NCBI GenBank assembly: GCA_001787205.1
Contig: MFWB01000011.1
Span: 1-47,668, forward strand
Origin: Candidatus Nomurabacteria bacterium RIFOXYB1_FULL_39_16
Lineage (GTDB): Bacteria; Patescibacteriota; Minisyncoccia; Phycocordibacterales; UBA9973
DNA: 47,668 nt
Direction: 5' to 3'
In this document: positions 6,814 through 31,110 of the stretch, in pieces
Layout of the letters: the number at the start of each line of letters is the position of its first letter
How positions within the stretch are numbered: position 1 is the first letter of the stretch
Program-made: the position numbers and the translations under genes
Notes under the pieces: generated by a model
What the model was told of the DNA's origin: nothing
Database searches by the model: none
What the model saw: the letters and a program-made list of their open reading frames with translations, nothing else

Positions 6814-9800
6814 TCAGACTTCCCCGACACCTGGTGTCGGGGTGGGGATAACAACTTCTTCAAGAGGGTCTGGGACAGGCGGAGGAATCTCCTCTGGAAT
6901 CTCCTCCGGAGTATCTGGAGTTTCAGGAGTTTCTTCCCCGACACCTGGTGTCGGGGTGGGGATAACTTCTGGCACTTCTTCTATCATGATCTCTTCTGGG
7001 ACATCTTCTATAATTTCTACCGTAATAGCGTACGGAGAAAGATAATCATTAAATTCACCACCAGCTAAATTTTTGAGATGCAATTTAATTTTATAAATAC
7101 CTTCTTGCAGGGTCGTCCCTTCGCCCGACAAGTTTCCATCCCAATTTTCGGAACAAGTGGTTTTGTTGTCGCAATCATCTCCGGGGTAAAAATATTTGTA
7201 GAGAGTTTCATCGTCTTCCTTTTCAATTTTAAGAGATACCCAATCCACTTCCTCGTCCGCGATGAAATTAATAGAAACAGGTTCAGTCAACGGATTGGTC
7301 GTAATGTCGCCCACTACTCCATTAAATGTATATTCCGTAATTGTCGGCGCAGTGCCGAGTTCGGGCTCTGGATCAACGACGACTGATTCATCTACAATAT
7401 ACACCGTTCCTGCTTCACTTACTCCTCCGTACCCACTCCAACCATTAGCGGTACTTTGCCCAGAAAAAGAAGAAGTTTTAGAATAGAGAGCTATTCTTCC
7501 TCCGCCACCAGGGCCATAACACACGTCAGGACAATACGACCCCCCTCCATCCACTTTGAATTTTCCTACGCCTTCTAAAGTTTCAGTTGTTATAAATATA
7601 CTCCCACCACTTGAAGTATTGTCGCCAATGGCGGAAATTATTCCATCATTTACCAGGGTGTCTTCAACAATCATTCTAATAGCCCCTCCGCCAAAAGGAT
7701 GGTACCCTCCTCCTCCACTTCCGAATTGGGTAGGTTCTGTCTTGGAACCATATATTGATGATGCCACATTGCCACTACCCAATCCTCCGTGACTTGCTCC
7801 AGAATAATTGGCGGTCGGTGCTCCAGGTCCGGCGTTTAAACTGTAACCCTTGCCGTCCGCTAAAATAGACGAGCTTGAGTCAACAGTAATGTTTGGAATC
7901 TCCAAGAAAAGCGTTTTTTCTGGAATAATCGTAATTAGCGAGTTTTCAGTCAATTCGAGAGATTCGGCGTTAATTGTTTCTTCTCCAGAGAGAGTGAGGG
8001 TGGATTTTTCATCAATGATAATTTGCGCAATGTCTAAAACTTGGTCCTTAGCTAAAGCTAAAGAGGAATTGTCCTTGATGAGAATTTTATCTGCCGTGAC
8101 AGAAACGCCTTCTTCCGAAATTACTTTTGCGCCGTTTGAAATAAAAATATTATTAAAGGAAAATGGACCATCATCATTTCTGAATTGCCACGAAGAGTCT
8201 ACATAAAAATCATTCTCCGATTCATCAAATATACCGACGGTGCCATCTTGAGCACAAACTTGAGTCCAACCATCGTAACTTCCACATCCACCTTTTGCTT
8301 CTATCATTCCTTCAAAAGAAGAAGTTTCATAATATAGAGCAATCCTTCCTCCACCACCAGGACTCTTGAAAAAGCCGGTGAAAAAAAGCGCTCCACCGTT
8401 TGCATGCAGTGTGCCATTTCCCGCTATTTTTTTAGTTGATACATAAATACTTCCTCCGCTACTTGCGTTCCCTCCGGAAGCGGAAACTGTTCCGTTGTTG
8501 GTAAAGGTATCCGATACGATCAGCTGGATAGCCCCTCCTCCCCGATGCAACCAAGCTCCTCCACCACTACCCAAGTCAATTGGTCTTATTGCCGAACCAT
8601 AAGTAACTGCAGACAAAGGGTTACCAGTATGGTCACCATGGCTAGCACCAACGGTAGGGTCACTTGAAGTTCCGGGTCCTAAATTTTCTGGACCGTAACC
8701 CTTTTGATCTGCAGAAATAGATGCTCCTTCTGTAATGGTTAAATTAACAGCATTTATTTTTACTCCCTTGAAAGCATTAGTGGATTCCTGGTCTCCTTCT
8801 AGAGTTAAAATTGCGTTATTGGTTATCACTAAATTTTCATAATTATATTCGCCGGGAGCTAGAGTGGTATTCTCATCAATCGTAAAAGTATCCAATTGAA
8901 CAGGATCTTCTGGAACAGGTTCCTCGGGGTCTGATTCTTCTGGATCTGGCTCCTCTGGGTCTGGTTCCGCTGGATCGGGTTCCTCCGGGTCCGGATTTGA
9001 CACGACGGGGTCTTCTTCAGGGTCTTCTGTTTCTGGTTCCGGCTCTGGTTCCACTGGCTCCGGTTCTTCTACTTCTACTTCTGGTTCTGAAGTTGACGAC
9101 CCTCCTCCGCCACCACCGCCACTACTACGACGACGAGGCTTTTCACCAGAATCAGCTATTTCTTTGGTCTTCTCTTCTGTTGGCGCGTCTTCATCTAGAT
9201 TTTCATCCGAAACTGGCATTGGCACTGGTTTTATATTTTTAGGAACTTGTTCCTTAGGAATTTGTTCTTGTGGAGGAGCTACGTCATCCGATTCAGTATC
9301 ATCCGCTGAATTATTTTCATCTGTCGGCGGTAAATCTATGGCCAAGTCACCGCCCTCCGGCAAACTTTCTATGACATTGCCCATCAAAGCATTCCCTATC
9401 GCCATGCCCACGTTGTATGCGCCGACTATTATATCTCTTGCTAAAATTGCCGTCGGGTCTGCCACTGCTAACATTATTTTTAGTATTTTATGTCCCAAAG
9501 TAAGTTCTGGTGGAGAAATACAAGGTCCACTCTCTTCTTGTTCGTCATTTTCTTTGAGGTTGTTGAGCGCGGATTTAATATCTCTGACGATTCTGTCTCC
9601 TTCATATTTCAGGTAAACATTTGAAAAGCTGTGCCCGTTGCCATCAATATCTTGTGAAACTGGTATGTGAACATTCGGCGATAAAATTTTTATAAAACGA
9701 GCTACGCTGGTTGCGATGACGCTATCTGTGTCGGAAGTTAAATATTTTCCTCCGCCCGCAACCCTATTCGCGGGGGTAGCCACACCATACACGCCGATTG

Positions 9801-10940: not shown

Positions 10941-11609
10941 TTACAGGTATCGGATACCTGGGAAAATAGTTTCCCCTCTTTGCTCTCTAATGATAGGAAT
11001 TATCTTTAAACATTCATTCTCAAAATTTTTATTACCCCCGTAAAAATCCAATAAATTATTAGCTTCATTTTTTGAAACTAAGTTAAAATTCATTTTTTCA
11101 TATTCTTTATCGCTAGCCATAATTAAACTATTTTTCTCCTTTGGAATATCGTGAATTAAATAATTTACATTCACATATGGAAATATCTTCAAAAAATATT
11201 GATCATTATCAATTAAATGCGATTTAAATTTGCCTTGAAATAAAGCTCCGCTTCTGTTGTAGACCTTATTAAAGTATCGCGCGTACCCGCCCGACAATCT
11301 TCTTAAAAATTCTGATATACCGCCGTCCACCTTTTGTCTTAAAATGAAATGAAAGTGATTTGGATTAAAACAATAGCATATAATAGAAACCAGCGGGCCT
11401 TCCCCTTTTTCTCTTCTTCTACAATGCCCACAATATAATTTATCTCTCAACGTGTCCCTCAGATTGCCTACAGGTAAAATAGTATTAAATTCTTTTACAC
11501 TTTGAATAAAACGATTGAGATCTTTTTTGCTCATAAAAATATCTCTTTTATCAACACCTCTGTTATATATATGATAGTACTCATCACTCACAAATGGATT
11601 TTTTCTCAT
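10941..11609 (-). mobile_element. REP-associated tyrosine transposase (RAYT, Y1/HUH family)
   Basis: YYHIYNRGVDKRDIF...HFHFILRQ...ARYFNKVYNRSGALFQGKFKSHLID is the typical TnpA_REP pattern; HUH motif in NPNHFHFIL; flanked by palindromes. Confidence 0.9.
10944..10960. repeat. REP-like palindrome CAGGTATC-G-GATACCTG, copy 1
   Basis: Encodes the last residues of the RAYT (PGIRYL) and abuts its stop codon. Coordinates +/-1. Confidence 0.85.
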
Positions 11610-11627: not shown

Positions 11628-11650
11628 TTACAGGTATCGGATACCTGTAA
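11628..11650. repeat. REP-like palindrome TTACAGGTATC-G-GATACCTGTAA, copy 2
   Basis: Same core, 19 bp upstream of the RAYT start codon. Confidence 0.9.
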
Positions 11651-11730: not shown

Positions 11731-11757
11731 CCTTCCAGGTATCGGATACCTGGAAGG
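11731..11757. repeat. REP-like palindrome CCTTCCAGGTATC-G-GATACCTGGAAGG, copy 3
   Basis: Same core with longer arms (13 bp). Confidence 0.9.
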
Positions 11758-18218: not shown

Positions 18219-18290
18219 AACCCCTCCAACCTCCCCTTATCAGGGGAGGCGAATGGTTTCCCCCTGACAAGGGGGAATAAGGGGGGTTAA
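18219..18290. repeat. Composite palindromic element B
   Basis: CCCCTCCAACCTCCCCTTATCAGGGGAGG...TTTCCCCCTGACAAGGGGGAATAAGGGGGGTT, paired inverted hairpins; resembles element F in ftsK. Confidence 0.85.
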
Positions 18291-19318: not shown

Positions 19319-21568
19319 ATGGCAAAAAATGGAAATGGAAGGAAGGGTGATAAATACGAAAAAAAATTTACGAGTGGATTAAAAACGCAAACTAAACACG
19401 GAATCATCGCAGTTGTATTTTTTGTTCTAGCAGTATTCTTCCTGATGACCTACTTTGATATCGCTGGAGTGGCGGGTCTTTTTATTTTTGAAAAACTGGA
19501 ATACTTGCTCGGCGTCGGATATATCCTATTACCTACTCTCCTCGTCTTGCTCGGAAGTTCATTTATAAAATCAGAAGTGCCAGACATCGGATGGACTCGC
19601 GTCATCTCCGGTATTTTGTTTCTGCTCTCGGGTTTGGGGATGATAGACATCGCTTCGGGGAACCATTCCGGCGGATTTTTCGGAGAAATTTTATCTACAC
19701 CATTCGTCTCTCTGTTTGATGTATATGCCAGTCTCGTTTTCCTCGGAGCAATTTTAATAATTTCAGTTCTGATAATGTTTGACGCCAAGCTTTCCTTCGG
19801 TTCGCTTTTCACGAGAATCAAGGCATTGTTTACGAAGAAAGAAAAAGAGTTCACCTCTGATTTAAATGAAGATGAAATGGAAGAAGTGGAAAAAGTTTCT
19901 ACTCCCCTCCTCAATGAGGAGGGGGATGGGGGTGGTAATTCTAAAAAGAACCACCCCGCTCTAAAGAGCACCCCTCCTCAACAAGGAGGGGAAGAAGAAT
20001 TTGAACTCCCCAAGCTAAAAGCAAAAAGCTACAAGCTAAATACTAATTACGTTCCTCCCCCGCTTGATTTGCTTGAGGAAGATAAAGGTAAACCGAACAC
20101 CGGCGACATCAAGGCTAACGCGAATATCATAAAGCGTACTCTCGCGAACTTCGGCATTGAAGTGGAAATGGATGAGATAACTATCGGACCGACAGTCACC
20201 CGCTACGCGCTTAAGCCAGCCGAAGGAGTGAAGCTCTCCCGCATCGTGGGACTACAGAACGACCTCGCACTCTCCCTCGCGGCGCATCCTATCCGCATAG
20301 AAGCTCCCATCCCAGGCAAGTCTCTCGTCGGTATTGAAATTCCGAATAAATCCAAATCAATAGTCGGGCTCGCCACTCTCCTCTCCGATGATAAGTTCCA
20401 GAATTCTCCGAAGCCACTCACCATCGCGCTCGGACGCAATATTTCCGGCAAAGCGGTCTTCGGTAATTTGGCGAAGATGCCACACGCGCTCGTGGCCGGC
20501 ACGACTGGCTCAGGAAAATCGGTAACCATTCATTCTATGATTACTTCCCTTCTATATAGGAATGGCCCGGAAGATTTGAAGCTCATATTGATAGACCCGA
20601 AACGCGTGGAATTAACTCTTTATAAAAACATCCCTCACCTGCTCACGCCCGTAATTACTGAAGCAAAAAAGACTATTCTAGCCTTAAAATGGGCAGCCAA
20701 AGAGATGGACCGCCGTTACGATATATTAGAGGCGGAATCCGTACGAGACATAGAGTCTTATCATAGTAATGTTTGGGGCAAAAATAAGCAAAAGACCCCC
20801 TCCAGCTCCCCCTTGGCAGGGGGAGAGAATGAGGATACCTCCCCTGATAAGGGGAGGTCAGGTGGGGTTGATCGCCTGCCTTATATTGTCATCATCATAG
20901 ACGAACTGGCGGATATTATGAGCACTTACCCGAGAGAATTGGAAGCGGCCATCGTGCGTCTGGCACAGATGTCACGAGCAGTGGGCATACACTTGATACT
21001 CTCCACACAACGCCCAGAGGTGAATGTCATCACGGGACTCATCAAGGCGAACATCCCCGCCCGTATCGCGCTGAAAGTTTCTTCTCAGATAGACTCCCGC
21101 ACGATATTGGATACAGGCGGAGCGGAAAAGCTCTTGGGCGCCGGTGATATGCTCTACTCTTCGGGTGAAGCTCAGCCAGAACGTCTGCAGAGTGCTTTCA
21201 TCTCCGAAGTAGAGGTGAAAAAAGTAGTGAAATATTTGGCGGATGCCTATGCGGACGAGGTGACAGAAGAGATAACCCTAACCGCGGGCTCTATCTCTGC
21301 CGATAAAAGCATTTTTGAGGCTTCGCTTGATGACGATGATATGGATGACGATGATGAAATGTATGAAGAGGCCCGAGCCTGCGTGATGGAGGCGGGAAAA
21401 GCTTCCACTTCTTATTTGCAAAGAAAATTGAAATTGGGATATGCGCGCGCGGCTAGACTGATGGATAAACTGGAAGAACGCGGAGTGATTGGTCCAGGAG
21501 ACGGCGCAAAGCCGAGAGAGGTGTTGGAAAAAGTAGAAAGAACAGAAGATGGGGAAAATGTGATCTAA
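19319..21568 (+). CDS. ftsK: DNA translocase FtsK/SpoIIIE
   Basis: N-terminal TM helices; PHALVAGTTGSGKSVTIHSMITSLL Walker A; LPYIVIIIDELADIM Walker B; C-terminal gamma wHTH (SYLQRKLKLGYARAARLMDKLEERGVIGP). Confidence 0.97.
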   Translation: MAKNGNGRKGDKYEKKFTSGLKTQTKHGIIAVVFFVLAVFFLMTYFDIAGVAGLFIFEKLEYLLGVGYILLPTLLVLLGSSFIKSEVPDIGWTRVISGILFLLSGLGMIDIASGNHSGGFFGEILSTPFVSLFDVYASLVFLGAILIISVLIMFDAKLSFGSLFTRIKALFTKKEKEFTSDLNEDEMEEVEKVSTPLLNEEGDGGGNSKKNHPALKSTPPQQGGEEEFELPKLKAKSYKLNTNYVPPPLDLLEEDKGKPNTGDIKANANIIKRTLANFGIEVEMDEITIGPTVTRYALKPAEGVKLSRIVGLQNDLALSLAAHPIRIEAPIPGKSLVGIEIPNKSKSIVGLATLLSDDKFQNSPKPLTIALGRNISGKAVFGNLAKMPHALVAGTTGSGKSVTIHSMITSLLYRNGPEDLKLILIDPKRVELTLYKNIPHLLTPVITEAKKTILALKWAAKEMDRRYDILEAESVRDIESYHSNVWGKNKQKTPSSSPLAGGENEDTSPDKGRSGGVDRLPYIVIIIDELADIMSTYPRELEAAIVRLAQMSRAVGIHLILSTQRPEVNVITGLIKANIPARIALKVSSQIDSRTILDTGGAEKLLGAGDMLYSSGEAQPERLQSAFISEVEVKKVVKYLADAYADEVTEEITLTAGSISADKSIFEASLDDDDMDDDDEMYEEARACVMEAGKASTSYLQRKLKLGYARAARLMDKLEERGVIGPGDGAKPREVLEKVERTEDGENVI
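19902..19992. repeat. Composite palindromic element E (inside ftsK linker)
   Basis: CTCCCCTCCTCAATGAGGAGGGGGATGGGGGTGGTAATTCTAAAAAGAACCACCCCGCTCTAAAGAGCACCCCTCCTCAACAAGGAGGGG. Confidence 0.9.
20794..20872. repeat. Composite palindromic element F (inside ftsK motor domain)
   Basis: GACCCCCTCCAGCTCCCCCTTGGCAGGGGGAG...CTCCCCTGATAAGGGGAGGTCAGGTGGGGTT; codes KTPSSSPLAGGENEDTSPDKGRSGGVD just before Walker B. Confidence 0.9.
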
Positions 21569-25024: not shown

Positions 25025-25052
25025 AGTAGCAAAAACTTTTTAAAAAAGCAAT

Positions 25053-25092
25053 TCACCTCACCCCAGCCCTCTCCTTAATAAGGAGAGGGGGC
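25053..25092. repeat. Palindromic element G
   Basis: CACCTCACCCCAGCCCTCTCCTTAATAAGGAGAGGG. Confidence 0.9.
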
Positions 25093-25977
25093 CTAGATTC
25101 CGAAAAGTCGTTTGGCATTCGCCACAATAGCCTTCGCCACCTCCTCCTCGGGAAGTTTCTTGATTTCGGCGATTCTTTTAACTATTTCTGCCACATAAAC
25201 AGGTTCGTTGCGTTTGCCTCTATACGGCACAGGCGCCATATATGGAGAATCCGTGTCTGTTAGTATCATATCAAGTGGAAGATCTTTAATTATCCCCTCG
25301 TAGTCGCAACTTCTGCCACTTTTCTTGGGAGGATAGGTAATGGCGCCGGTAAAAGAAATCATAAACCCAAAGGCTATAAAATTTTTCGCATCTTCCAGGT
25401 CGCCCTCAAAAAAATGAACCACTCCTTTGACTTTCGCGTGTTGTTTCAAAATTTCCAAAATGTCGGCGTATGCATTTTTATTTTTTTCTCCTGCCTCGCC
25501 CACAGGCGGGTCATAATTATTCCTCACGTGAATCATTAATGGTCTTTCTGTCTCGTTTGCCAATTCCACCTGCGCGATAAAATTTTCTTTTTGTTTTTTT
25601 ATAGACTCTTCATCCATATGATAATAATCCAGTCCACATTCCCCTATCGCCACCACCTTAGGGTCTTTCAAAAGCTCCCTATAAGCTTCTTTGTCAAAAG
25701 TTTCTCCACGAGAAGTAAATTCTTTTCCTCCTTCTCCTAATTCTTTTTCGTCATGAAATGAGGCTCCGGTGTGGATAGGATGAAGTCCGACAATAGCGTA
25801 CACGCCTTCTTTGTATTTATTTGCCAACTCAACTGCCCTCCTCGAAGTATCTATCTGTGTACCCACATTCATAAACCAAGTGTCGTTGTCTAGAGCACGC
25901 TTAATAACCTCGTCTCTGTCGGCGTCAAAAGCGGTAAAATTCACGTGGCTATGGATGTCTATGTATTTGGGGATCAT
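25093..25977 (-). CDS. tatD: TatD family metal-dependent hydrolase
   Basis: YIDIHSHVNF, GLHPIHTG, AIGECGLDYY, LTDTDSPYMAP motifs. Confidence 0.93.
   Translation of the reverse strand: MIPKYIDIHSHVNFTAFDADRDEVIKRALDNDTWFMNVGTQIDTSRRAVELANKYKEGVYAIVGLHPIHTGASFHDEKELGEGGKEFTSRGETFDKEAYRELLKDPKVVAIGECGLDYYHMDEESIKKQKENFIAQVELANETERPLMIHVRNNYDPPVGEAGEKNKNAYADILEILKQHAKVKGVVHFFEGDLEDAKNFIAFGFMISFTGAITYPPKKSGRSCDYEGIIKDLPLDMILTDTDSPYMAPVPYRGKRNEPVYVAEIVKRIAEIKKLPEEEVAKAIVANAKRLFGI
25490..25510. repeat. Imperfect palindrome inside tatD
   Basis: CCTGCCTCGCCCACAGGCGGG, encodes PPVGEAGE. Confidence 0.6.
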
Positions 25978-25993
25978 GGATTAATTCAATTAA

Positions 25994-26032
25994 GAACCTC
26001 ACCCTGCCCTCTCCTTATTAAGGAGAGGGTGA
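25994..26032. repeat. Palindromic element H
   Basis: GAACCTCACCCTGCCCTCTCCTTATTAAGGAGAGGG; contains the stop codon of the DUF559 ORF. Confidence 0.9.
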
Positions 26033-26377
26033 ATTTAATTCATTGATAATTTTCTTTAATACACTATCTATATTAACATTTACTTCATTATTCCAAAAAC
26101 GAATTACTTTTATACCAAATACAGATAAATAATCGGATCTTTCAATGTCATATTCTTTATTTTCAATATGCTGTGAACCATCAATCTCAATCGCCAACTT
26201 TTTTAACGGACAATAAAAATCCAAAACATACGGACCCACGGAATACTGTCTTTTTATTTTTAAACCTAACTGATTATTTCTTAATTTACCCCAAAGAATT
26301 TCTTCTTCCTTGGTTTGAGATCGCCTTAATAAAACACGCTTGGTTAAATTTTTTGTCTTATTATAGAAAACCGTCAT
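26018..26377 (-). CDS. DUF559 / Vsr-like endonuclease-domain protein, copy 1
   Basis: LRRSQTKEEEILWGKLRNNQLGLKIKRQYSVGPYVLDFYCPLKKLAIEIDGSQH...VIRFWNNEV. Confidence 0.85.
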   Translation of the reverse strand: MTVFYNKTKNLTKRVLLRRSQTKEEEILWGKLRNNQLGLKIKRQYSVGPYVLDFYCPLKKLAIEIDGSQHIENKEYDIERSDYLSVFGIKVIRFWNNEVNVNIDSVLKKIINELNSPSP

Positions 26378-26391
26378 ATGATGAATAAGCT

Positions 26392-26757
26392 CTACTGACT
26401 TTTAGTTGCAACCTCTAAAATATATCCATCTGGGTCTTTAAAATCTACAGTATAAGCGGTTTTGTTTTTGTAAATATAATCAACTGGACCCCTAATAATA
26501 TTTCCATTATTACTTATCAAGAATTCCGCCACTTTATCTACGACACTCCTAGATTCAGCAAGAAAACAAATATGACGTGGTCCTGCACTTTTGATAAACC
26601 CAAAAGGTTGTTCTATAAAATAAATTTTTGTTTCTCCATTACTAAACCCATTTTCATTTATCTTTTGCCAATCAATGACTTGAAATAGGTTTTCATAAAA
26701 ATTTAAAGAAACAGCAAGCTTCGAAACCCAGAATTCTATATGTTTTATTGTTGTCAT
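26392..26757 (-). CDS. VOC family (glyoxalase/bleomycin resistance-like) protein
   Basis: MTTIKHIEFWVSKLAVSLNFYENLF...YTVDFKDPDGYILEV; longer N-terminus in the ORF track is encoded by palindrome I. Confidence 0.85.
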   Translation of the reverse strand: MTTIKHIEFWVSKLAVSLNFYENLFQVIDWQKINENGFSNGETKIYFIEQPFGFIKSAGPRHICFLAESRSVVDKVAEFLISNNGNIIRGPVDYIYKNKTAYTVDFKDPDGYILEVATKSQ

Positions 26758-26766
26758 GTAATTTAT

Positions 26767-26809
26767 TCCCCTCTCCTTAATAAGGAGAGGGGTTGGGGGT
26801 GAGGTTCTC
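26767..26809. repeat. Palindromic element I (inverted relative to H)
   Basis: CCCCTCTCCTTAATAAGGAGAGGGGTTGGGGGTGAGGTTC. Confidence 0.9.
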
Positions 26810-28295
26810 AATCTTTTCTTAAAAACAAAGGTTTCTCGGGTTTTTTGTTGGCTTTAATTAACTCTTGGATTGTTTGAGAAGTTTCAGGCAATATTAGTTC
26901 TAACATCTTTACTATTTTATACAAACGAATAACCATATCGGAAATTAATTCTTTCCCTTTTTTCTCATCTATTTTTACAACTTTAAACGGTTCTGTTTCT
27001 TGGATAGATTTATCCAGTTCGCCAATTTTATCCCAGACAAAGTCCGTCGCTTGTTTGATGTCAAATTTTTCAAAAAAACTAAAATATTCTGTGAAATCTG
27101 TCTCCTCTCCAATCTCTGGACACTTTTCTAAATATTTTTCTGATAATGTAAGTATTCGTGAAGTTAAATTCCCCAACCCATTTGCCAATCCAGAATTATA
27201 AGCATCTTTAAAGCGTTCCATTGTGAAGGGACTATCTTCAAAGGAAGAAACTTCTCGCAAAAGGAAATAGCGGAGCGCGTCGGTGCCGTATTCCGCGACC
27301 AATCCCGTCGGATCTGCGACATTGCCCAAAGTTTTAGACATTTTTACTCCTCCATCCGCTGTAATAAATCCATTCACTACTATTTGATGTGTATTTTTTA
27401 CACCGGCAGCCATCAGCATCGCTTGCCACATTGCAGATTGAAAACGAGTATTATCTTTCCCACAATATTGCGTCGGGTTTCCATTCACCCAATATTTTTC
27501 AAACAAATCCTCCCCTCCTGCCTGAGGAGGGGTGCCCTTTAGGGCGGGGTGGTGGGAGTCTGGCCAACCTAGGGTAGAAATATAATTCGTAAGTGCATCA
27601 AACCACACATACATCACGTGCTCTTCATCCCCCGGCACCGGTATGCCCCAAGACATCTTTGATTTCAAGCGTGAAATAGAGAAATCTTGTAGCCCGCGAG
27701 AGACAAAAGCCTTCATTTCATTAAAGCGAAAATCGGGCACGACAAAATTCGGATTTTCTTCGTAAAATTTCAAAAGTTTTTCACCAAATTCACTATACTT
27801 GAAAAAGTAATTTTCTTCTTCAATAATTTCAAGCGGACGGCCAGGGTGCACGGGGCATTCATCATTTACGAGTTCGGAATCACTCTTCGTTTCTTCGCAA
27901 CCGACACAATATTTCGCTTCATAATTTTTCTTATAGATATATCCATTGTCATTCACCCTCTTCCAGAATTCTTGCGCGGACTTTATGTGATGTTTATCTG
28001 TCGTGCGGACAAAATGCAAAATTTCTTCATCCATCCCGAAAATTTTCACTGATTCTTTGAATTTTAAAAAGTTCTCGTCTACGAATTCTTGTGGCTGTTT
28101 GCCCTGTGAGAGAGCTTTCTCGTAAATCTTCATTCCGTGCTCGTCCGTGCCAGTGTTAAAAAAAACATCAAAACCTTGCAGTTTTTTGTATCTGGCGATG
28201 ACATCCGTCCGCACAAATTCCAGCGCATGCCCCATATGGAGGTCCGCGTTTACGTACGGAAGAGTCGTTGTAATGTAGAAACTAGTTTTTTTCAT
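26808..28295 (-). CDS. metG: Methionyl-tRNA synthetase
   Basis: FYITTTLPYVNADLHMGHALEFVRTDVIARYKKLQG; DGGVKMSKTLGNVADP. Confidence 0.97.
   Translation of the reverse strand: MKKTSFYITTTLPYVNADLHMGHALEFVRTDVIARYKKLQGFDVFFNTGTDEHGMKIYEKALSQGKQPQEFVDENFLKFKESVKIFGMDEEILHFVRTTDKHHIKSAQEFWKRVNDNGYIYKKNYEAKYCVGCEETKSDSELVNDECPVHPGRPLEIIEEENYFFKYSEFGEKLLKFYEENPNFVVPDFRFNEMKAFVSRGLQDFSISRLKSKMSWGIPVPGDEEHVMYVWFDALTNYISTLGWPDSHHPALKGTPPQAGGEDLFEKYWVNGNPTQYCGKDNTRFQSAMWQAMLMAAGVKNTHQIVVNGFITADGGVKMSKTLGNVADPTGLVAEYGTDALRYFLLREVSSFEDSPFTMERFKDAYNSGLANGLGNLTSRILTLSEKYLEKCPEIGEETDFTEYFSFFEKFDIKQATDFVWDKIGELDKSIQETEPFKVVKIDEKKGKELISDMVIRLYKIVKMLELILPETSQTIQELIKANKKPEKPLFLRKD
27508..27560. repeat. Palindromic element J (inside metG)
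   Basis: TCCTCCCCTCCTGCCTGAGGAGGGGTGCCCTTTAGGGCGGGGTGGTGGGA; encodes SHHPALKGTPPQAGGED. Confidence 0.9.
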
Positions 28296-30672: not shown

Positions 30673-30715
30673 AGCACCCCACCCCAACCCTCCCCTTGGC
30701 TAATGGGAGGGCGAA
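30673..30715. repeat. Palindromic element K
   Basis: GCACCCCACCCCAACCCTCCCCTTGGCTAATGGGAGGGCG; contains the DUF559 stop codon. Confidence 0.85.
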
Positions 30716-31065
30716 CTCAACCTACTAACAATTTCTTGTAAAACTCCACTTATGTTATTAGTTATCTCACTATTCCAAAAGCGAACTGTCTTTATATCTA
30801 AGGTCAAGAGATAATTATCTCTTTCTTGATCGTATTCTTTGTTATCAAGATGCTGTGCTCCATCCAATTCAATTGCTAGTTTTTTATCAGGACAATAAAA
30901 ATCCAAAATATAGGGTCCTATAGAATGTTGGCGTTTGAATTTAAAACCCAATTGAGCGCCACGCAAATATGCCCACAAAATAACTTCTTGCTGAGTTTGA
31001 TTTTTTCGTAACTCAACTCTCCGAGGTTTTAAAACTGGATGATTGTGGAGTATGGGCATTTGCAT
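30700..31065 (-). CDS. DUF559 / Vsr-like endonuclease-domain protein, copy 2
   Basis: LRKNQTQQEVILWAYLRGAQLGFKFKRQHSIGPYILDFYCPDKKLAIELDGAQH...VRFWNSEI; clear paralogue of 26018-26377. Confidence 0.85.
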   Translation of the reverse strand: MQMPILHNHPVLKPRRVELRKNQTQQEVILWAYLRGAQLGFKFKRQHSIGPYILDFYCPDKKLAIELDGAQHLDNKEYDQERDNYLLTLDIKTVRFWNSEITNNISGVLQEIVSRLSSPSH

Positions 31066-31068
31066 TTT

Positions 31069-31110
31069 CCTCCCCCTTCGCCAAGGGGGAGGCTAGGAGG
31101 GGGTGCTGGT
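31069..31110. repeat. Palindromic element L
   Basis: CCTCCCCCTTCGCCAAGGGGGAGGCTAGGAGGGGGTGCT. Confidence 0.9.

Follow-up and report, generated by a model that had tools for sequence, protein, structure and literature searches.

DUF559 nuclease genes between inverted triplex-type repeats: a putative REPtron-like family of bacterial mobile elements

Introduction

Between tatD and metG of Candidatus Nomurabacteria bacterium RIFOXYB1_FULL_39_16, a gene for a DUF559 protein and a gene for a VOC-family protein stand between inverted copies of one palindrome, which raises the question of whether such a unit moves and, if so, by what enzyme. The original prediction, made for the 47,668-nt stretch of DNA analyzed here (the window), was a composite-transposon-like unit carrying VOC as its passenger. 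Palindromic repeats of a related kind, the BoxC/PIT triplex repeats, have been known in Escherichia coli since the 1990s. DUF559/YcjD nucleases are widespread and have no assigned role in most bacteria, so that a link between nuclease and repeat would join two open questions.

Anatomy of the element in the window

Three near-identical copies of CCTCTCCTTATTAAGGAGAGG (at most one mismatch), here called G, H and I, were found in the window, while shuffles of the window contained 0 copies and none would be expected by chance. Orientation was read from the asymmetric loop and the C-rich tail: G and H agree and I is opposite. Together with the positions, this bears out the predicted inversion of H and I around the DUF559 and VOC genes between tatD and metG, and the description of G as a third close copy in the orientation of H; the DUF559 stop codon does lie inside the palindrome, namely in H (Table 1). 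The three are not plain palindromes: each reads C9-loop-G9-(2–3 nt)-G9, by sequence a perfect intrastrand-triplex motif, with a third-strand score of 1.0. Hairpin formation by DNA was predicted for H at –9.7 kcal/mol (z –4.1) and for I with z –4.4.

The H–I interval encodes only DUF559 and VOC: it holds no transposase, HUH Y1 or other, and its ends are repeats of ~40 bp without a gene. What survives of the composite-transposon-like reading is thus a discrete unit with inverted palindrome ends, inserted at tatD–metG; it is not a composite transposon, since neither end is an insertion sequence and the unit contains no transposase.

The second DUF559–palindrome association of the original prediction was recovered as well, with a palindrome of another family at each end of the gene and the stop codon inside one of them. 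The window has 12 intrastrand-triplex motifs, all between 18.2 and 31.1 kb, compared with 0 in each of 10 block shuffles, and the 762-kb genome to which it belongs has five DUF559 genes with five different palindrome sequences.

Table 1. Coordinates of genes, repeats and other palindromes in the window
Feature	Position	Strand	Remarks
Palindrome CCCCGACACCTGGTGTCGGGG, two copies	6822-6842, 6936-6956		~100 bp apart, in the 3' part of a 1141-aa open frame
Y1/RAYT-like gene	10941-11609	(-)	three copies of its own palindrome, one over the 3' end
CAGGTATCGGATACCTG palindromes of the Y1 gene	10944-10960, 11628-11650, 11731-11757
Inverted triplex-motif doublet, REPIN-like	18230..18277		TTATCA-loop family; without nuclease gene
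Inverted doublet	19904..19991		CCCTCCTC family; within ftsK open frame
Second inverted doublet in ftsK	20806..20858		TTATCA-loop family; within ftsK open frame
44-bp palindrome CCATACTCCCGGGATATGGGAATTCCCATATCCCGGGAGTATGG	23736-23779		matches no family seen here
Solo element G	25052..25092	(-)	core 25068-25088; family and orientation as H
tatD	25093..25977	(-)	flank of insertion hot spot
Element end H, triplex motif	25994..26029	(-)	core 26008-26028; C-stem CCCTCTCCT, G-stem AGGAGAGGG, spacer CA, third strand GGGTGAGGT; outward tail towards tatD; holds DUF559 stop codon
DUF559 gene, 119 aa	26018..26377	(-)	PF04480, predicted YcjD/Vsr-like nuclease fold; E 2.3e-33
VOC/glyoxalase-fold gene, 121 aa	26392..26757	(-)	between DUF559 and end I; E 4.4e-11
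Element end I, triplex motif	26768..26809	(+)	core 26770-26790; CCCCTCTCC-TTAATAA-GGAGAGGGG-TTG-GGGGTGAGG; inverted relative to H; abuts metG stop codon
metG	26808..28295	(-)	other flank
In-frame element in metG	near 27512-27555		other palindrome family (..SHHPALKGTPPQAGGED..)
Triplex motif, 3' end of second DUF559 gene	30688..30711	(-)
Second DUF559 gene	30700..31065	(-)	other palindrome family; stop codon inside palindrome
Triplex motif, 5' end of second DUF559 gene	31069..31092	(+)

The metG–tatD site in relatives

Among 30 loci around metG (29 from relatives), tatD mostly followed metG directly, with a gap of 5–15 bp. The spacing is nevertheless not constant, contrary to what would have spoken against an insertion: in one relative the spacer is 69 bp long and holds a solo element (G018), three others have a DUF559 gene between inverted palindromes (G028, G022, G001), and in G004 (L021) the spacer holds a Y1/RAYT-like gene between copies of ACACAGGGTTCCCCTGTGTAAT, different palindromes of its own. 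The census of DUF559 loci in the genus placed 11 of them at metG–tatD, with five palindrome families, so that the site occurs empty, with a solo repeat, loaded with the nuclease, or loaded with nuclease and passenger. The short gap in most relatives, taken with 11 loaded genomes of five families, shows metG–tatD to be a hot spot of repeated insertion; the empty sites of relatives are too diverged to fix exact element borders or a target-site duplication.

DUF559 and its repeats within the genus

DUF559 was present in 44 of the 80 genomes of the genus, from which we took 75 loci. Hairpins cluster right at both ends of the gene, reaching a density of 9.1 per kb within 60 bp upstream as against 0.13–0.27 beyond 200 bp. 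The two ends of one locus were matching inverted copies in 55 of the 75, above a threshold set at the 95th percentile of the distal windows in those loci. Strict scoring of perfect hairpins found both sides bracketed in only 25/75, a low figure since many stems carry a mismatch, and inverted-repeat and triplex scoring were therefore added. On inspection of the 75 loci, the repeat ends read AACCTCACCCC or ACCCCC... The association of DUF559 with the repeats is strong.

Nuclease and repeat also vary together. DUF559 identity correlated with flank similarity (Mantel r 0.55; the maximum of 999 permutations was 0.07), and DUF559 clades carry loops of their own (TTATTAA, TTRTCA, AGANTACT, TGCGA and CCACAAGG), so that the nuclease clades co-diverge with the palindrome families. 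Shared descent accounts for part of the agreement, given that some loci are orthologous between species, and inheritance of the whole unit can produce co-divergence without any recognition of repeat by enzyme.

Pattern counts over the 80 genomes, with statistics that ignore phylogeny, gave a mean of 9.1 TTRTCA-family copies per genome with the matching nuclease vs. 2.0 without (P = 7e–6), flanking copies contributing one to three per locus to this count, and 9.8 vs. 2.5 for the TTRTTAA family (P = 0.004). We give little weight to the AGANTACT family, because its copy excess consists largely of flanking copies, mainly with the exception of G012 and G013. For the four counted families, the median was 0 repeats in genomes without DUF559 and 6 in those with it; many genomes have repeats without a matching nuclease.

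Triplex motifs, other phyla and E. coli

For 116 hairpins near DUF559, the third-strand score, which measures sequence symmetry and accepts T or A against A, averaged 0.74 vs. 0.23 with shuffled flanks. Triplex motifs were denser near DUF559 than far from it in the genus (2.05 vs. 0.118 per kb), in other CPR bacteria (2.30 vs. 0.100) and in other phyla (2.90 vs. 0.085), a 17- to 34-fold enrichment across 75 loci in the genus and 80 outside it.

Scanning bacterial genomes yielded 75 usable DUF559 loci; the scan kept the relatives nearest the query, and is thus not a sample of all DUF559 proteins. Matching inverted ends exceeded the control threshold at 20 of 25 CPR loci and at 38 of 50 others, which include Bacteroidota, Desulfobacterota, Nitrospirota, Chloroflexota and Proteobacteria; at 15 of 54 non-CPR loci no triplex motif was found near DUF559. 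The direction of the tails, tested by regular expression, held in the genus, while in other phyla tails point either way. On plasmids of Synechocystis sp. B12 (L191, L192), a DUF1156 gene and a BREX pglX gene are each interrupted by a DUF559 element, and one position of pglX offers three states: no repeat in Planktothrix, an inverted doublet without a gene in Pseudanabaena, and the full DUF559 element in Synechocystis.

The BoxC/PIT/TMECO repeats of E. coli have the consensus CCCTCNCCC-N3-6-GGGNGAGGG-N3-GGGNGAGGG and 23 copies in K-12, and Holder et al. (2015, PMC4666352) reported no mobility gene near them and left their evolutionary origin unanswered. G, H and I match the BoxC-type pattern C9-N3-6-G9-N3-G9, with loops of 5–7 nt that are partly longer than 3–6; judged by base order, the repeats described here have the BoxC/PIT/TMECO intrastrand-triplex architecture. 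The DUF559 gene of E. coli is ycjD, whose 3' end overlaps a C-rich palindrome, with a BoxC-like motif downstream. In an even-step sample of 59 chromosomes the median was 22 BoxC-like places with ycjD vs. 6 without, and ycjD presence follows lineage. We rejected ycjD as a clean insertion: strains lacking it carry the eef efflux operon at its place (PMC12817139), for which reason ycjD looks like an old resident.

Passengers and in-frame copies

VOC matches occurred in 4 of the 80 genomes. The original prediction had VOC as a passenger of the unit; it neighbors DUF559 only in the window's genome, and its two good homologues elsewhere (G079, G027) have neither palindrome nor DUF559 beside them; VOC as a standing companion was rejected. 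Other neighbors of DUF559 were a NUDIX protein, an aminoglycoside nucleotidyltransferase-like protein, a PQ-loop protein and, within leucyl-tRNA synthetase, an alpha/beta hydrolase; given passengers so varied and unlike, VOC is one of several occasional ones. At one locus (L055, G029), an aminoglycoside-2''-adenylyltransferase-like gene (PF10706) directly follows DUF559 and precedes the next C-rich palindrome.

Such variety is what one might expect if the repeats themselves drove recombination, and if homologous recombination or gene conversion among their dispersed copies carried DUF559 along as a frequent passenger, in the manner of VOC; different units at the same site and the instability of triplex sites in E. 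coli (PMC4666352) point the same way. DUF559 is, however, the constant partner, other passengers being rare and dissimilar; its clades match the palindrome families, and the pairing recurs in many phyla. We therefore regard the repeats as agents in their own right as unlikely.

Long open frames enclose nine DUF559 copies; the six that were read are leucyl-tRNA synthetase genes (L042, L047, L048, L054, L062, L038), where DUF559 sits in frame just before the VFTTRPDT motif and the surrounding palindromes are read as peptides; some of these inserts add a hydrolase or NUDIX domain. The in-frame element in metG is common to the window's genome and G004 and absent from most relatives, and the ftsK repeat peptide turns up again in many further open frames across the genus. 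The in-frame copies within metG, ftsK and the genes for leucyl-tRNA synthetase count against the palindromes being transcription terminators or other ordinary regulatory hairpins, as do their paired inverted arrangement, the lack of a T-run behind the stem at the tatD–metG element, and the reported lack of terminator activity of PIT elements (PMC4666352); even though copies frequently stand just behind genes, that explanation is most improbable.

Y1/RAYT transposases as a control

Y1 transposases, found in 55 of the 80 genomes and once in the window, might mobilize the repeats in trans. Yet a hairpin with purine/pyrimidine arms, the repeat type of DUF559, lay within 700 bp of only 1 of 30 Y1 loci, compared with 57 of the 75 DUF559 loci, for which the interval was narrower, and both Y1 loci inspected closely have other palindromes of their own. 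Mobilization by Y1/RAYT or another transposase is accordingly very unlikely. As observations in their own right, the Y1 gene of the window and its palindromes form a classical REPtron, separated from the DUF559 element by 15 kb, and the Y1/RAYT-like gene of G004 occupies a site that DUF559 elements use in other species.

The DUF559 nuclease

The structure of the DUF559 protein at tatD–metG, modeled with confidence (pLDDT 86.9), matched NGO0050 of Neisseria (Z 15.8), I-Bth0305I (Z 12.2) and Vsr (Z 10.2), and DUF559 is thus predicted to be a Vsr/EDxHD-fold nuclease. Among the residues invariant in 56 DUF559 sequences are L17, R18, T22, E25, W29, D53, E64, D66, G67, H70, D77, R80 and R93; compared by their order in the sequence, E25, D53, H70 and D77 follow the EDxHD motif name. 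The median dN/dS of 0.14 indicates purifying selection, and hence that the protein is maintained. Sequence matches in the PDB to enterotoxin B chains (E 0.03 and worse) were taken as chance. In the literature, YcjD was treated in 2005 as a known member of the PD-(D/E)XK superfamily (PMC1189080), a DUF559 gene was called an EDxHD homing endonuclease in passing (PMC9403480), and the Caulobacter DUF559 protein VsrA is reported to be repair-related and is tied to cytosine methylation and DNA damage (PMC12907096).

The modeled Vsr fold and the Caulobacter case (PMC12907096) would suit a repair enzyme kept beside unstable repeats, maintaining but not moving them. That leaves unexplained why the gene is inserted with inverted ends at variable sites, also inside other genes, and why repeat families are specific to a loop; we consider such a role improbable.

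A proposed element family

The anatomy, the states of occupancy and the pairing of enzyme with repeat together suggest a mobile repeat system like REP/RAYT with another enzyme and other ends, and we think it probable that these are REPtron-like elements with DUF559 as nuclease and triplex repeats as ends. The insert at tatD–metG would belong to a widespread family of small mobile elements of bacteria, which we provisionally call DUF559-triplex elements. A full copy has a triplex-type repeat at one end, then the DUF559 gene with or without a small extra gene (VOC in this case), and at the other end the repeat in inverted orientation, the 3' end of DUF559 extending into a repeat. Shorter copies, either solo repeats or inverted doublets, lack the nuclease gene and are scattered in the genome, some in frame in genes.

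On the simplest reading, DUF559 would act on the repeat, and movement would then be driven by the nuclease: DUF559 may bind or nick its own repeat, folded as hairpin or triplex in single-stranded DNA, or may cut the target, after which repair or replication would copy the element to a new site, as RAYT transposases are thought to spread REPs. BoxC/PIT/TMECO in E. coli would be relics or substrates of such a system and ycjD its resident DUF559 gene. More tentatively, and with some doubt, DUF559 could serve as mobility nuclease to a class of elements spread across bacteria, with ends that are recognized as folded three-stranded DNA.

A full-text literature search gave no report of a link between DUF559 and triplex repeats, nor of any DUF559 protein that cleaves or binds the repeat; subscription journals were mostly outside its reach, and the novelty of the link is therefore provisional. 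DUF559 becomes a candidate, and one that can be tested, for the mobility enzyme that long-known triplex repeats have lacked. If true, this would account for where BoxC/PIT repeats come from and for many of the peptides inserted in frame into conserved Patescibacteria genes, define an element class using an intrastrand triplex as end signal, and bring a further type of enzyme into the set that spreads short repeats.

Comparison with known systems

Among the closest known systems are REPtrons and REPINs, in which short palindromic repeats likewise bracket one enzyme gene in inverted orientation (PMC3733652, PMC3116915), with non-autonomous singles and inverted doublets besides; nuclease-free doublets were found here too. 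Here, however, the enzyme is a DUF559 nuclease and not an HUH tyrosine transposase, no GTAG tag was found at the stem foot of the 75 DUF559 loci inspected, and the ends are putative triplex motifs. BoxC/PIT/TMECO repeats share the order of C-stem, loop, G-stem, ~3 nt and second G-strand, and are likewise multi-copy, in inverted pairs and variable in site presence; those of E. coli are described as intergenic and without a mobility gene, whereas the repeats here bracket DUF559, fall into many sequence families and lie in part in frame inside genes. Rickettsia palindromic elements are alike in being palindromic repeats in frame within genes, but the two types classed in PMC3733652 are CGTC repeats without a known enzyme.

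On the side of the enzyme, the EDxHD homing endonuclease I-Bth0305I resembles the DUF559 model in the fold of its catalytic domain; in place of the single cognate site of a homing endonuclease, DUF559 has many unrelated insertion sites, with no intron or intein host at the loci inspected and no extra DNA-binding region. Vsr, YcjD and Caulobacter VsrA have the same predicted nuclease fold as the DUF559 proteins studied here, but in the literature searched they are not described as borne by an element.
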